A DNA stretch of 37,248 bases from Candidatus Nanopelagicaceae bacterium (GTDB taxonomy: Bacteria; Actinomycetota; Actinomycetes; Nanopelagicales; Nanopelagicaceae): the NCBI GenBank assembly GCA_947454425.1, contig CANGJV010000005.1:1-37248 (forward strand), read 5' to 3'. Position 1 is the first letter of the stretch, and every line of letters begins with the position of its first letter. Below, in pieces: positions 7,986-22,881 of this stretch. The position numbers were made by a program, and so were the translations under genes. Below the pieces are notes generated by a model. That model was not told the origin of the DNA, searched no databases, and worked only from the letters and a program-made list of their open reading frames with translations.

Positions 7986-8498
7986 ATGGCATTTGTTATC
8001 CCCGAAGGACTCCACGAAGATCTCTATCCAGTTGCGTGGATGGTCGGCAAATGGGGCGGCACTGGGATGGGCGAATGGCCAGGCTCGGAAAAATTTCAAT
8101 TCGAACAAGAAGTCACATTTCGCCACGATGGTCGAGCATTTCTTGAATACACATCACATTCATGGATTTTAACTGCGGATGGAAAACGAGATCGTCCTGG
8201 TGCATCAGAGGCTGGCTATTGGCGTATCAAGCCAAATAGAGTTATTGAATTAGTACTTGCTCATAGCACCGGAATTTCAGAAGGTTGGCTGGGAAAGATC
8301 AGTGATGATCGTCCTGCAATTCAACTCGCACTTGATCATGCATATGTTGCACCAACTGCAAAAGGTGTAACCGATGGCGCTCGCCTCTATGGACTCGTCG
8401 ATGGCCAACTCTTCACTTCTTACGATATGGCCGCACCAGGTAAAGAATTACAGGCGCATATCTGGTCATCACTCGAGCGTCAGGTGGAGAACTTATGA
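7986..8498 (+). CDS. nitrobindin-like heme-binding protein (FABP-like family)
   Basis: A 170-aa protein of the nitrobindin/THAP4-like beta-barrel family. Bacterial members bind ferric haem and can isomerise peroxynitrite to nitrate. Visible features are the N-terminal LYPVAWMVGKWGGTGMGEWP (the family's G-x-W-x-G-x-G motif), a run of amphipathic barrel strands, EAGYWRIKP, and an ending with MAAPGKELQAHIWSSLER. The length matches the family. The gene overlaps the asparaginase start by 4 bp (ATGA), showing tight coupling. Function is inferred from the family. Confidence 0.87.
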   Translation: MAFVIPEGLHEDLYPVAWMVGKWGGTGMGEWPGSEKFQFEQEVTFRHDGRAFLEYTSHSWILTADGKRDRPGASEAGYWRIKPNRVIELVLAHSTGISEGWLGKISDDRPAIQLALDHAYVAPTAKGVTDGARLYGLVDGQLFTSYDMAAPGKELQAHIWSSLERQVENL

Positions 8499-9415
8499 AA
8501 GATGTAGTCCTCGCTGAATATGTTCGTAGTTCAGTTGTTGAATCACAACACCGTGGTTTTCTCCTTGCACTTAACGCTGATGGTTCGACCAATCTCGAAC
8601 TCGGAGATAGCTCGCATTTAATCTTTCCTCGTTCGACGGTGAAGTCATTTCAAGCTGCTGCCATGGTGCGCAACGGGTTAAAACTCGAGCCACGATTGCT
8701 GGCACTGGGTGCATCAAGCCATTCTGGTTCGCCTGCACACATATCTGCCGTGCGAGAAATTCTTGCAACAGTTGGTCTCGATGAAAACGCACTTCAATGT
8801 ATGCTCGATAAGCCACTCGGCGAAGCAGAACGTCGTGCATATGGAGATCAAGCACCTACACGCATTGCGATGAATTGCAGCGGAAAACACGCGGCAATGT
8901 TGGCAACCTGCGTTACAAATAATTGGCCGATTGAAAATTACCTTGATGCAAGTCATCCACTTCAGATTGCATGTCGTGAAGAACTTGAAAATCTTGCAGG
9001 TGAGAAAATCACAGTGACAAGTACAGATGGTTGTGGAGCACCACTATTCCTGATCTCTGTCGCTGGCCTTGCTCGCGCGGTTCGTGCAATCACCATTTCA
9101 ACTGATATTGCACATCGCAGCGTTGTTGAAGCATCACGTGCATTTCCAGAGATGGTTGCAGGCGATGGCCGTTTAACAACGACGATGATGCGCGAAGTCC
9201 CCGGCCTTTATATGAAGGATGGAGTTGAAGCAGTTGAAGTTGCCTCAATGCCTGATGGTCGTACCTTGGTCTTTAAGGTCAGCGATGGCTCATTGCGCCC
9301 ATTTCGCAGCCTGGTTCACGCCGGCTTAAAGCGGCTCGGCATCGACACACATTATGAGGTTGAAGCAGTACTTGGTGGCGGCAAAGTCATCGGCGAGCTC
9401 CGCGCAACATTTTAA
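8495..9415 (+). CDS. L-asparaginase II family protein
   Basis: A 306-aa member of the Asparaginase_II family (Pfam PF06089 type, distinct from the classical AnsA/AnsB fold), which hydrolyses L-asparagine to aspartate and ammonia. Recognisable segments are RSSVVESQHRGFLLAL, PRSTVKSFQAAAMV with the likely Ser/Thr-Lys catalytic region, GASSHSGSPAHI, NCSGKHAAMLATC, TSTDGCGAPLFLIS and a C-terminal GGGKVIGELRA. No signal peptide is visible, so it is cytosolic. It overlaps the nitrobindin stop and is co-expressed with it. It could supply ammonia, but no direct link to GlnR can be seen. Confidence 0.88.
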   Translation: MKDVVLAEYVRSSVVESQHRGFLLALNADGSTNLELGDSSHLIFPRSTVKSFQAAAMVRNGLKLEPRLLALGASSHSGSPAHISAVREILATVGLDENALQCMLDKPLGEAERRAYGDQAPTRIAMNCSGKHAAMLATCVTNNWPIENYLDASHPLQIACREELENLAGEKITVTSTDGCGAPLFLISVAGLARAVRAITISTDIAHRSVVEASRAFPEMVAGDGRLTTTMMREVPGLYMKDGVEAVEVASMPDGRTLVFKVSDGSLRPFRSLVHAGLKRLGIDTHYEVEAVLGGGKVIGELRATF

Positions 9416-19195: not shown

Positions 19196-19984
19196 ATGAA
19201 ATTCAATCGATTAATTGTCTGCGGTGACTCTTTCAGTGAGGGCATGACTGATGAAGTCGTTGAAGGTAAATTTCGAGGTTGGGCAGATCGCCTGGCAGAT
19301 GAATTAGCAGAACACTCACCTGGATTCACATACGCCAATCTTGCGATTCGCGGAAAGCTAGTGGGTGAAGTAATCGATGACCAGGTACCAGTCGCACTTA
19401 CATTTGTAACAGGTCCCGAGACTCTCATCTCTTTTCATGCAGGTGCCAATGATGCGCTTCGTCCGGGTTATGACGCTGCAGTTACTATTGCAAAATACCA
19501 AGGCGCGGTAAGAAAATTGGCGGCTTCGGGAGCATCAATCCTGCTCTTCACTGTCTTGGAAGATACCGGCAACAAGGGTCGTGGTGCGGAAGTGTGGAAG
19601 AAACGATTCTTTGAACTCAACGCTGCAATCATGGAAGTTGGCAAGGAAGTTGGCGCAACAATCTCTAACGCCAACGAATTAGATTTCTTTAAAGATAATA
19701 GATTTTTAGCATTTGATCGACTACACCTCAACCCTGATGGACATTGGCGAGTTTCACAAGGTGTGCTTGAAGTTCTCGGCTATCCATTTGATTCTGCTTG
19801 GCGCACGCCATTGCCGCCTGCCCCAAAAACGCCATGGATTAAGCGGCGAGCCATTGGAGTTTTATGGTTCTTCGTCTTTGCCTTGCCATGGATCTGGCGC
19901 AGATTGCGCGGAAAGTCATCAGGTGATGGTCGAGTCTCTAAATATCCAGAACCAGTTTTATGGCCAAAGCGAGCGAGCCGCTAG
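19196..19984 (+). CDS. SGNH/GDSL-family hydrolase
   Basis: A 262-aa lipase/esterase-like hydrolase. Block I holds the nucleophile Ser12 in CGDSFSEG, with a Gly in the middle (NLAIRGKLVG), Asn in HAGANDALRPG (block III), and the catalytic Asp174/His177 pair in FDRLHLNPDGH (block V). A hydrophobic stretch (GVLWFFVFALPWIW) near residues 220-233 with flanking basic residues could anchor it to the membrane. There is no signal peptide at the N-terminus. It begins 4 bp after rlmB. The substrate is unknown; acyl esters or deacetylation are both possible. Confidence 0.88.
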   Translation: MKFNRLIVCGDSFSEGMTDEVVEGKFRGWADRLADELAEHSPGFTYANLAIRGKLVGEVIDDQVPVALTFVTGPETLISFHAGANDALRPGYDAAVTIAKYQGAVRKLAASGASILLFTVLEDTGNKGRGAEVWKKRFFELNAAIMEVGKEVGATISNANELDFFKDNRFLAFDRLHLNPDGHWRVSQGVLEVLGYPFDSAWRTPLPPAPKTPWIKRRAIGVLWFFVFALPWIWRRLRGKSSGDGRVSKYPEPVLWPKRASR

Positions 19985-19988
19985 AAAA

Positions 19989-21737
19989 TTAACGTTGAGC
20001 GCCTCTTGCTGGCAATGCGAAAGTACTACGAGAAACTTCAGTATTCGCACTCGACCAGACCGTGCTCTTTCTATTTCGGACAACAATTGTGATTGCCCGC
20101 TTTCCTTTACCTTCAATTCTTGTGAGAGCAGAAGATTTAACAGAGACCACAGTTGACTTCTGAGGTGCAATGAATGGAATCGAGCTAACTCCTCGTGCAA
20201 TTTCAATTTCATCTCTGGTGATGGACCATTCAATTTCAAAATCCGACGCCGGTAGAAAAACTTGATTATTGCTTACATTAAATTTACCGCTCGCCGCACT
20301 CTTGGTTGTGACTGAAATTATTGGTTGTACATCTTCAAAAGCTGCATCACATTCTTCATCATCAAAACCCAAGAGTGGACGCGAGGAATCCATCGCCTGA
20401 ATGTATGCAGCCGCGGTTTCGAAATTGATTCCGGCATCTGATTGGTCTCCAAGTGACCAGGCAATTACAGAGGGATGATGTATGTCGCGCTGGACCATTC
20501 GACTAGCTCGGTCGACAAATGCGGCGAGGTAAGTTGGATCATCGGCTAGGAATTCAGCTATCGGGACCAATTGAATATTTGGCTCAGCAATCACGTAGAA
20601 GCCAAGCTCATCACAGAGATCTAGGAAGGTCGGCGTGCTTGGGAAATGGGAGGTATGTAAAGCAGTGAAATTACGTCGCTTTAATTCAAAGAGAATTTGT
20701 CTCAACTGGTCACGGTTTGCAATACGGTTGATAGCAGAACCTAATTCTCTGCGGTCGACACCAGTAAGTCGGATTGCCTTGTTATTGACTAGAAGATCAA
20801 AACCCTTCACTTGAACGCTTCTAAAACCTATTTTTTGGCTGGAAATCTGAACGATATTTCCAAGCGGATCGACTAATTCTAAATGGAGTGTATAAAGTTG
20901 TGGGTTTTCAGCCGACCAAGGCAAAATCTTTCCTATCTGAGCCTCAAAGAAGATTTCTCCTGTGGTTGCAGCTGTATCGGCATCAAGTGTTGCAGCCATT
21001 GACGCACTCTTTACCTTTGGAAGCTCTTCAATCGCCGCACGTAAGGTAAAACCCTCGCGAGATTTTCCATTTACCGCTCCAATGAAAGCTTGAATCTCAA
21101 GTGATCCAGTTTTAAGGTCTCGAGATATTCCAGTTGATGTATAAAGTCGCTCAATAAAGACTTCGGTGGATGCATATAACTTGATTGATTGCGATATTCC
21201 CCCGTGCCAAGAGTGATCTAAATCTTCAATAAATGAAGCATCAGAGAATTTGCTGACATAAAGACGAATTGAATTTTTTCCACCTTTTAAGGATTTGGTG
21301 ATATCAAACTCAGCGGCCATTCGAGCATCTTTACTTATTCCGATTTCATATCCATTAACTAGCACTCGGACAACAGATTCGAATCCACCAAGTTGTAGAA
21401 CGATTCTTTTATTCTCCCAAGAGCCAGGAATTTCAAAGTCTCGCTCGTAGACACCGGTAGGGTTCTCAGAATTTGAATGAGGCTCTAACTTATCTATCGG
21501 CAGCCCGCCATTCGTGGTTACAACTTGATCGAAGATAAAATTCTTATCTTCTTCCATAGTCCAAAGGCTTGGAAGCTCGAACTTCGCCCAACGCTTTCTT
21601 AGTGATTCATTTGGGGTATGAAGTAATTGAAAGCTCCAAGTGCCATCGAGGGACAACTTCTCGACGTGCTCAATATTGAGAATGGGAAGACGATTGACCG
21701 ATGTAGTCTCCGGGCTCGCCCAATACTGTGGATGCAT
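19989..21737 (-). CDS. degenerate glycoside hydrolase family 2 (LacZ-like) protein
   Basis: A 582-aa protein built like GH2: a sugar-binding jelly roll (about 25-190, GVYERDFEIPGSWENKRIVLQLGG), an Ig-like domain (190-300), and part of a TIM barrel (310-460). The barrel aligns with LacZ as GVDRRELG, TALHTSHFP, LCDELGFYVIAEPNI and HHPSVIAWSLGDQSD. The acid/base Glu461 of WSLGNESG is replaced by Gln432. The nucleophile segment (CEYAHAMG in LacZ) is missing, and the barrel runs directly into a second Ig-like domain. LacZ (about 1020 aa) is almost twice as long. The frame is intact over 1.7 kb, which argues against a fresh pseudogene. It is probably a non-catalytic carbohydrate-binding protein. 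No signal peptide is seen. Confidence 0.8.
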   Translation of the reverse strand: MHPQYWASPETTSVNRLPILNIEHVEKLSLDGTWSFQLLHTPNESLRKRWAKFELPSLWTMEEDKNFIFDQVVTTNGGLPIDKLEPHSNSENPTGVYERDFEIPGSWENKRIVLQLGGFESVVRVLVNGYEIGISKDARMAAEFDITKSLKGGKNSIRLYVSKFSDASFIEDLDHSWHGGISQSIKLYASTEVFIERLYTSTGISRDLKTGSLEIQAFIGAVNGKSREGFTLRAAIEELPKVKSASMAATLDADTAATTGEIFFEAQIGKILPWSAENPQLYTLHLELVDPLGNIVQISSQKIGFRSVQVKGFDLLVNNKAIRLTGVDRRELGSAINRIANRDQLRQILFELKRRNFTALHTSHFPSTPTFLDLCDELGFYVIAEPNIQLVPIAEFLADDPTYLAAFVDRASRMVQRDIHHPSVIAWSLGDQSDAGINFETAAAYIQAMDSSRPLLGFDDEECDAAFEDVQPIISVTTKSAASGKFNVSNNQVFLPASDFEIEWSITRDEIEIARGVSSIPFIAPQKSTVVSVKSSALTRIEGKGKRAITIVVRNRKSTVWSSANTEVSRSTFALPARGAQR

Positions 21738-21880
21738 GTGTGAATCTTGCCATGTATCCAGTAAGCCAATTACAACGCTCAGCGAAGAGAGGCGAAAAAT
21801 AGCCCCTATTTATGCGGTGAGAATGCGATTTTTAGAATTCGCGGTTCGGTGCCATAATTACGCCGTTCCAAAAGCAGTAC

Positions 21881-21960: not shown

Positions 21961-22881
21961 TTAAGCGCTTTCTCTGCGATTCCGCTTCATGCTCGCAACT
22001 ATCGCAACAGCCATTACTGCAAGAATAATTCCAAGTGATACATAAGTTGGAATCTTAAAGAGCGCATGGCTCACAACCATCTTTATACCAACCCATACCA
22101 GAATAATCGAAAGCCCTTCTTTAAGGTAGGTGAATTTCTCCATCAAATTAGCAATTAAGAAGTACATCGAACGTAGCCCCAAGATTGCTAGCGCGTTACT
22201 TGCGAAGACAAGGAAGGGTTCCTCTGTGACTGCAAAGATTGCTGGGATTGAGTCAACCGCGAAGACAAGGTCCATAAACTCAACCATCACAAGAACTAAA
22301 AAGAGCGGCGTGAAATAACGTAAGCCATTGATACGAACAAGAAACCTCTGGTCATGAAACTCTGAAGTCATCCGCAACTTACGATTTAGATATTGGTAAA
22401 ACTTAGAGTCATTGATATCAAAGTGCTCGTTTCGACCAGCAAACATCTTGTAACCTGTGTAGATCAAGAATGCACCAAAAATATATAGAGTCCAGCTCGC
22501 CTCTTTAATCAAAGCAGCTCCTGCGAAAATCATTGCACCGCGCATCACCAAAGCACCAACAACTCCAAAGAAGAGAACTCGGTGCTGGAACCGTTGTGGA
22601 ACTGCGAGGGCGCTAAAGAGAAGCCCCCACACAAATACGTTATCTACCGCCAACGACTTTTCGATGAGATATCCACTGTAATACTGAAGTGCAAAGTCTC
22701 CGCCGCTGAAGAACCAGATGACACCACCAACGGCTAGACCACAGGCGACCCAAATTGTGGACCAGAATGCTGCTTCTTTAAAGGAGATTTCTTGATGACC
22801 GCGGTGAAGAAATAAGTCGATGATCAGCATTATGCCGACAAATGCGAGCAATGCAATCCATGCGTAAGTGGTGACGTTCAT
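21961..22881 (-). CDS. TerC/Alx-family membrane protein, probable Mn2+ exporter
   Basis: A 306-aa integral membrane protein with about nine hydrophobic segments. It carries the TerC family acidic motifs in the membrane: SLAVDNVFVWGLLFS, a central EFMDLVFAVDSIPAIFAVT, and SNALAILGLRSMYFL. These Asp residues are the likely metal ligands. Members such as Alx and YkoY export Mn2+. This gene sits behind a yybP-ykoY Mn2+ riboswitch, which strongly supports manganese efflux. Its ribosome site (AAGGGGG, 5 bases before ATG) can pair with upstream riboswitch sequence. Other TerC roles (tellurite tolerance) are less likely here. The gene begins 220 bp from the divergent carbonic anhydrase. Confidence 0.92.
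   Translation of the reverse strand: MNVTTYAWIALLAFVGIMLIIDLFLHRGHQEISFKEAAFWSTIWVACGLAVGGVIWFFSGGDFALQYYSGYLIEKSLAVDNVFVWGLLFSALAVPQRFQHRVLFFGVVGALVMRGAMIFAGAALIKEASWTLYIFGAFLIYTGYKMFAGRNEHFDINDSKFYQYLNRKLRMTSEFHDQRFLVRINGLRYFTPLFLVLVMVEFMDLVFAVDSIPAIFAVTEEPFLVFASNALAILGLRSMYFLIANLMEKFTYLKEGLSIILVWVGIKMVVSHALFKIPTYVSLGIILAVMAVAIVASMKRNRRESA

Follow-up and report, generated by a model that had tools for sequence, protein, structure and literature searches.

A lacZ gene of Candidatus Planktophila probably converted in place into a maintained, non-hydrolytic protein with half a barrel

The 37,248-nucleotide stretch of DNA analysed here (the window; contig CANGJV010000005.1) encodes a shortened LacZ-type GH2 protein which, on the evidence of its sequence, is probably a Ca. 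Planktophila lacZ turned in place into a maintained, non-hydrolytic pseudoenzyme. Pseudoenzymes usually originate from duplicated genes; in this case a streamlined genome would have had its only lacZ copy converted where it stood, with half of the catalytic barrel removed and the product maintained. Short forms of nearly the same design occur in a second genus, and we advance, tentatively, the further reading that two streamlined genera independently cut the same three regions from their only lacZ and that selection keeps the product for a non-enzymatic function.

The source genome (G000) is a Ca. Planktophila MAG of 1.27 Mb, 88% complete and in 99 contigs, with Ca. Planktophila and other Nanopelagicaceae (acI freshwater Actinobacteria) as its nearest named relatives. 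In the list of open reading frames the gene runs on the minus strand from an ATG at 21737 to a stop at 19989-19991, so the open frame of 582 codons described in the earlier note, which gave no strand, is confirmed (Table 1). PF02837, PF00703, PF02836 and PF16353 all score over their cut-offs, establishing GH2/LacZ homology, with GH2_N at residues 29-188, GH2 at 193-306, GH2_C matched over profile positions 1-171 of 302, and LacZ_4 at 486-576. The best PDB matches are beta-galactosidases of the LacZ type (E about 1e-60), and E. coli LacZ can be aligned over residues 28-459. Against the NCBIfam LacZ models the protein reaches 301-336 bits, under cut-offs of 999-1284, and the intact relative L049 also falls below (736 against 999).

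Table 1. Features of the short GH2 gene and its surroundings, in window coordinates
Feature	Position	Strand	Basis
Convergent GDSL/SGNH hydrolase (sgnh); 4 bp between its end and the stop of the GH2 gene	19196..19984	+	locus comparison
Shortened LacZ-type GH2 protein, predicted catalytically dead, 582 aa	19989..21737	-	Pfam, LacZ alignment
Domain 4 (LacZ_4, PF16353), residues 473-582	19992..20321	-	Pfam, alignment
Half TIM barrel (b1-b4 and remnant of last helix), residues 307-472	20322..20819	-	Pfam, alignment, AF2
Asp431-Gln432, replacing the Asn-Glu acid/base pair N460-E461	20442..20447	-	alignment
Gln389 and Val391, replacing Mg ligands E416 and H418	20565..20573	-	alignment
Arg330, replacing H357	20748..20750	-	alignment
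Domain 2 (Ig-like, PF00703), residues 191-306	20820..21167	-	Pfam, alignment
Domain 1 (jelly-roll, PF02837), residues 1-190, conserved start	21168..21737	-	Pfam, AF2
Leader directly upstream of ATG, resembling the lacZ leaders of two own-clade species	21738..21761	-	leader comparison
TerC/Alx membrane protein, upstream neighbour common to window and sister species	21961..22881	-	locus comparison

The three-domain plan that the earlier note had taken to be intact is not. Three in-frame deletions have removed 40 residues of the domain-2 loop region (after residue 256, junction at 20967-20972), 115 alignment columns holding barrel strands b5-b8 and the nucleophile (after residue 455, junction at 20370-20375), and the 262 columns of domain 5, leaving domain 4 in place and the C-terminus at the domain 4/5 boundary. 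The (beta/alpha)8 barrel is incomplete, as the GH2_C match and the loss of b5-b8 indicate. Aligned with LacZ, the domain-2 deletion falls at the position of E. coli loop 272-288, which completes the active site of the neighbouring subunit (PMC12023411). Because the deletions hit the loop region, b5-b8 and domain 5, three of the parts that build or shield the E. coli LacZ active site are gone. In domain 1, 77% of highly conserved columns are retained. AF2 with a family alignment gave the LacZ D1-D4 fold (pLDDT 80, Z about 33), a model biased toward that fold by an alignment consisting mostly of full-length LacZ; the single-sequence model was uninformative (pLDDT 37).

What survives of the active site has been largely rewritten. 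Eight alignable residues (N102, D201, H357, H391, E416, H418, N460 and E461 in E. coli numbering) are invariant in 51 of 51 full-length relatives, and five of the eight are replaced in the window protein; N76, D174 and H364 stand for N102, D201 and H391, and the rest of the site lay in the deleted segments, including the nucleophile E537 within the CEYSHAMG of relatives. The LacZ alignment puts Gln432 at E461 and Asp431 at N460, with Gln389, Val391 and Arg330 at E416, H418 and H357, and it agrees, together with Pfam, with the earlier note's description of a LacZ/GH2-like protein that has lost its catalysis: acid/base Glu turned to Gln432, metal and substrate residues changed, nucleophile segment gone. 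Neither the E461-E537 pair nor the Mg ligands E416 and H418 expected of an active beta-galactosidase are present, and the protein would not hydrolyse galactosides.

Where did this gene come from? In sister species an intact lacZ of about 1000 aa occupies the same locus, in the synteny sgnh-lacZ-terC/canB; sgnh is the conserved downstream neighbour of lacZ across the family, and a tRNA-Thr and terC form the other flank of the short gene. The window's neighbouring genes are mostly 75-99% identical to those of the sister species (rlmB 97%), the short GH2 gene only 53%. Its 24-base leader matches the lacZ leaders of two own-clade species at 17/24 and 15/24 positions, and the others compared at no more than 10/24. 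From locus, neighbours and leader we take the gene to be the resident lacZ altered in place. Horizontal transfer, suggested earlier from a seemingly unusual composition, finds no support: GC3 is 0.36 against 0.34-0.48 in 15 neighbouring genes, and both flanks and leader match the gene's own clade. Promoter and terminator scans yielded nothing above expectation. No other close LacZ was found in the window genome, which contains galK and galT, so galactose metabolism itself has not been given up. Across the genus, 66 of 135 genomes carry a lacZ homologue, about 1000 aa long where unbroken, and the window gene is the only short form with such a domain plan among the 135. Other short frames in the genus (G035, G151, G129 and others) were taken as fragments; those among them whose coordinates were inspected run to contig ends.

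A search of 296 family genomes yielded two more short dead forms, in G312 (C24, L142) and G314 (C110, L143) of genus g47; these and the window gene are the short forms referred to below. Both adjoin sgnh at the same locus, where their congeners G308 and G309 have an intact lacZ, and both are 40-41% identical to the window protein over the full length, with the same domain plan and nearly the same deletions: columns 261-303, 508-614 and 743-end, against 262-301, 501-615 and 746-end in the window gene. They differ from it in their leader and in an active site that is more thoroughly lost, with a 16-residue loop carrying N102 deleted, D201 changed to Ser and H391 to Asn or Asp. By descent, as read from alignment and domain content, the window protein is a LacZ/GH2 protein that lacks the catalytic residues and the complete barrel of that family. 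A class-wide profile search of 394 genomes drawn evenly gave no short forms beyond those of G000 and G312 among the matches listed, where G314 does not appear, and viral contigs that were searched held no relatives.

Did the form arise once or twice? It was probably reduced twice in parallel, and we favour this over a single origin, in which it passed between the genera or descended from a common ancestor with intact lacZ kept elsewhere; that alternative is possible, if on balance doubtful. It would account for deletion ends that differ by 0-7 columns between the window gene and those of G312/G314, for the weak grouping of the three short forms in the full tree (80/58) and for four shared derived residues (W164F, W355R, A386P and E546K). 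However, identity ties the window gene to its own clade, at 53% to the intact LacZ there against 40% to the other short forms; its locus, flanks and leader also belong with that clade, it lies nearest to it when placed alone, and the grouping of the short forms joins long branches. AU tests on the two arrangements reject neither (p 0.33 and 0.22), and clade-specific residues are too few to place the window gene.

The notion of a relic, an unneeded lacZ whose fragment drifts before complete removal, has some points in its favour. Many members of the genus have no lacZ and in G172 and G043 it has been cleanly excised; the window gene has changed at a very high rate, its terminal branch being 2.17 changes per site long where the median is 0.073 and the nearby rlmB has a branch of 0; and its leader reads GGCAAG where some relatives have GGGAAG, possibly a weaker ribosome site. 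We nevertheless consider decay unlikely. The gene has no frameshift and no stop codon, with its deletions in frame, whereas neutral simulation that started from the consensus of the relatives and ran to the divergence actually seen produced 14 stops on average and at least 8 in each of 60 runs. Differences at the three codon positions (0.37/0.23/0.63) are most frequent at third and least at second positions. In a branch codon model the window branch runs to saturation, which limits its use to the contrast with omega = 1; holding omega at that value on the branch costs 34 lnL. A rough omega of about 0.3 on the branch, from pairwise dN of about 0.33 and flank dS of about 1, is relaxed against the background of 0.06 yet well below 1, all of these values being approximate with synonymous sites near saturation.

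A comparison of dN/dS across relatives, as proposed in the earlier note, was made in the second genus too: G312 and G314 give an omega of 0.068 with neutrality rejected (2dlnL 412), and zero indels in 558 codons. The short form is under strong purifying selection between these two genomes, and since both share the dead short form, the simplest reading is selection after catalysis was lost. The loss of catalysis with a retained frame described in the earlier note is upheld by the selection tests, and drift, which it gave as an alternative, is rejected (0 stops against about 14; omega 0.07). The neutral or relaxed evolution with a broken frame that marks a pseudogene was not found; the gene looks instead like a pseudoenzyme, an enzyme homologue with its catalytic residues lost that selection has kept. 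The window form is known from one MAG sequence and its counterparts belong to another genus at about 40% identity; because the protein is kept intact and a near-identical cut-down form exists in that second genus, a new non-enzymatic job is probably the explanation, rather than gene decay.

What might that job be? The product would be a cytoplasmic protein (no signal peptide is apparent by eye) folded as D1-D2-half barrel-D4 and unable to cleave galactosides, and it may act through D1 and D2 by binding a partner, be it a protein or, at a new site, a ligand, both genera having presumably reached this same form in parallel. The share of highly conserved columns that all three short forms retain is 73% in D2, 50% in D1, 47% in D4 and 33% in the half barrel, and because D2 and D1 are best kept, binding or scaffolding via these beta-sandwich domains is our best guess and, with the old galactose site dismantled, the likeliest role. 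The glycan sensor or lectin that had been suggested is improbable in the form of a protein holding galactosides uncleaved in the old active site: the window protein does retain the N102, D201 and H391 equivalents, and its genome has galK and galT, but the metal ligands, H357, N460/E461 and all of b5-b8 and domain 5 are gone, and the three remaining contacts were lost as well in G312 and G314. Galactoside binding at the old site is most likely absent.

It is highly improbable that the protein has a different enzyme activity, or is an inactive half completed by a second subunit in the manner of LacL/LacM or alpha-complementation. Split beta-galactosidases (LacLM) exist, but LacL retains the catalytic barrel, half of which is deleted here, and neither a PF02929 domain-5 subunit in G000 (88% complete), G312 (98%) or G314 (95%) nor another close LacZ in the window genome was found. 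An assembly artefact, conceivable for a single MAG, 88% complete and in 99 contigs, is scarcely credible given substitutions spread over the whole gene, continuous flanks and the same plan in two other genomes.

Set beside LacZ-type GH2 enzymes (E. coli LacZ and the intact Planktophila orthologues), the window protein shares domains 1, 2 and 4 and b1-b4, and with the Planktophila orthologues its locus and neighbours, but it has 582 instead of about 1000 aa and is without the acid/base residue, nucleophile, Mg ligands, b5-b8, domain 5 and domain-2 loop. LacL/LacM is a heterodimeric beta-galactosidase in which LacL, with its catalytic residues retained, has LacM as its partner; like LacL, the window protein is a shortened large chain without domain 5, yet it lacks those residues and no small partner subunit was found in its genome, and by these features it is not a LacL/LacM enzyme. 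Klotho, a pseudoenzyme derived from a GH1 glycosidase, likewise keeps the glycosidase fold with catalytic residues lost, and we know of no half-barrel deletion among glycosidase-derived pseudoenzymes. Searches of the open-access literature turned up neither a dead nor a half-barrel LacZ. The GH28 pseudoenzymes of beetles, also folded as glycosidases with catalytic residues lost, arose in multigene families (PMC6549527). The window protein differs from these and from Klotho in being a GH2 protein, and from the beetle proteins in coming from a sole lacZ copy converted in place.

If the reduction did occur twice, it would offer a natural replicate experiment on an enzyme becoming something else, and a natural example of a multidomain protein that contains a (beta/alpha)4 half barrel. 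For annotation the gene is a caution, as GH2 and LacZ_4 matches here do not imply lactose use.

Other lacZ loci show further fates. The gene is lost in many genus members; the clean excisions in G172 (L134 3762-3939) and G043 (L135 5714-5894) leave sgnh about 180 bp from canB, and in G102 (L136) the same gap is filled by about 4.2 kb without a match to window genes. In G216, lacZ lies in two separate frames of 233 and 521 aa (L172, C1:403900-405790), as would result from ordinary decay or a sequencing error, in contrast to the unbroken short forms. G314 also contains an intact-type lacZ barrel fragment that runs into unrelated sequence at the end of a contig (L171, C72:3364-4443), possibly a contamination or mis-assembly, the contamination of this MAG being 6%. 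At L076, positions 8006-9220 hold about 1.2 kb more between lacZ and sgnh than other loci. MAGs labelled Bifidobacterium breve, Streptomyces griseus and Clavibacter (L059, L060, L076 and L103) group with Nanopelagicaceae by gene content, synteny and trees, and their names look wrong. Finally, the window genome has another GH2-type gene (L138, G000:C3:17500-23500; frame of 847 aa, 33 bits) near apparent ROK-family and pectinase-like proteins, possibly a plant-polysaccharide locus.
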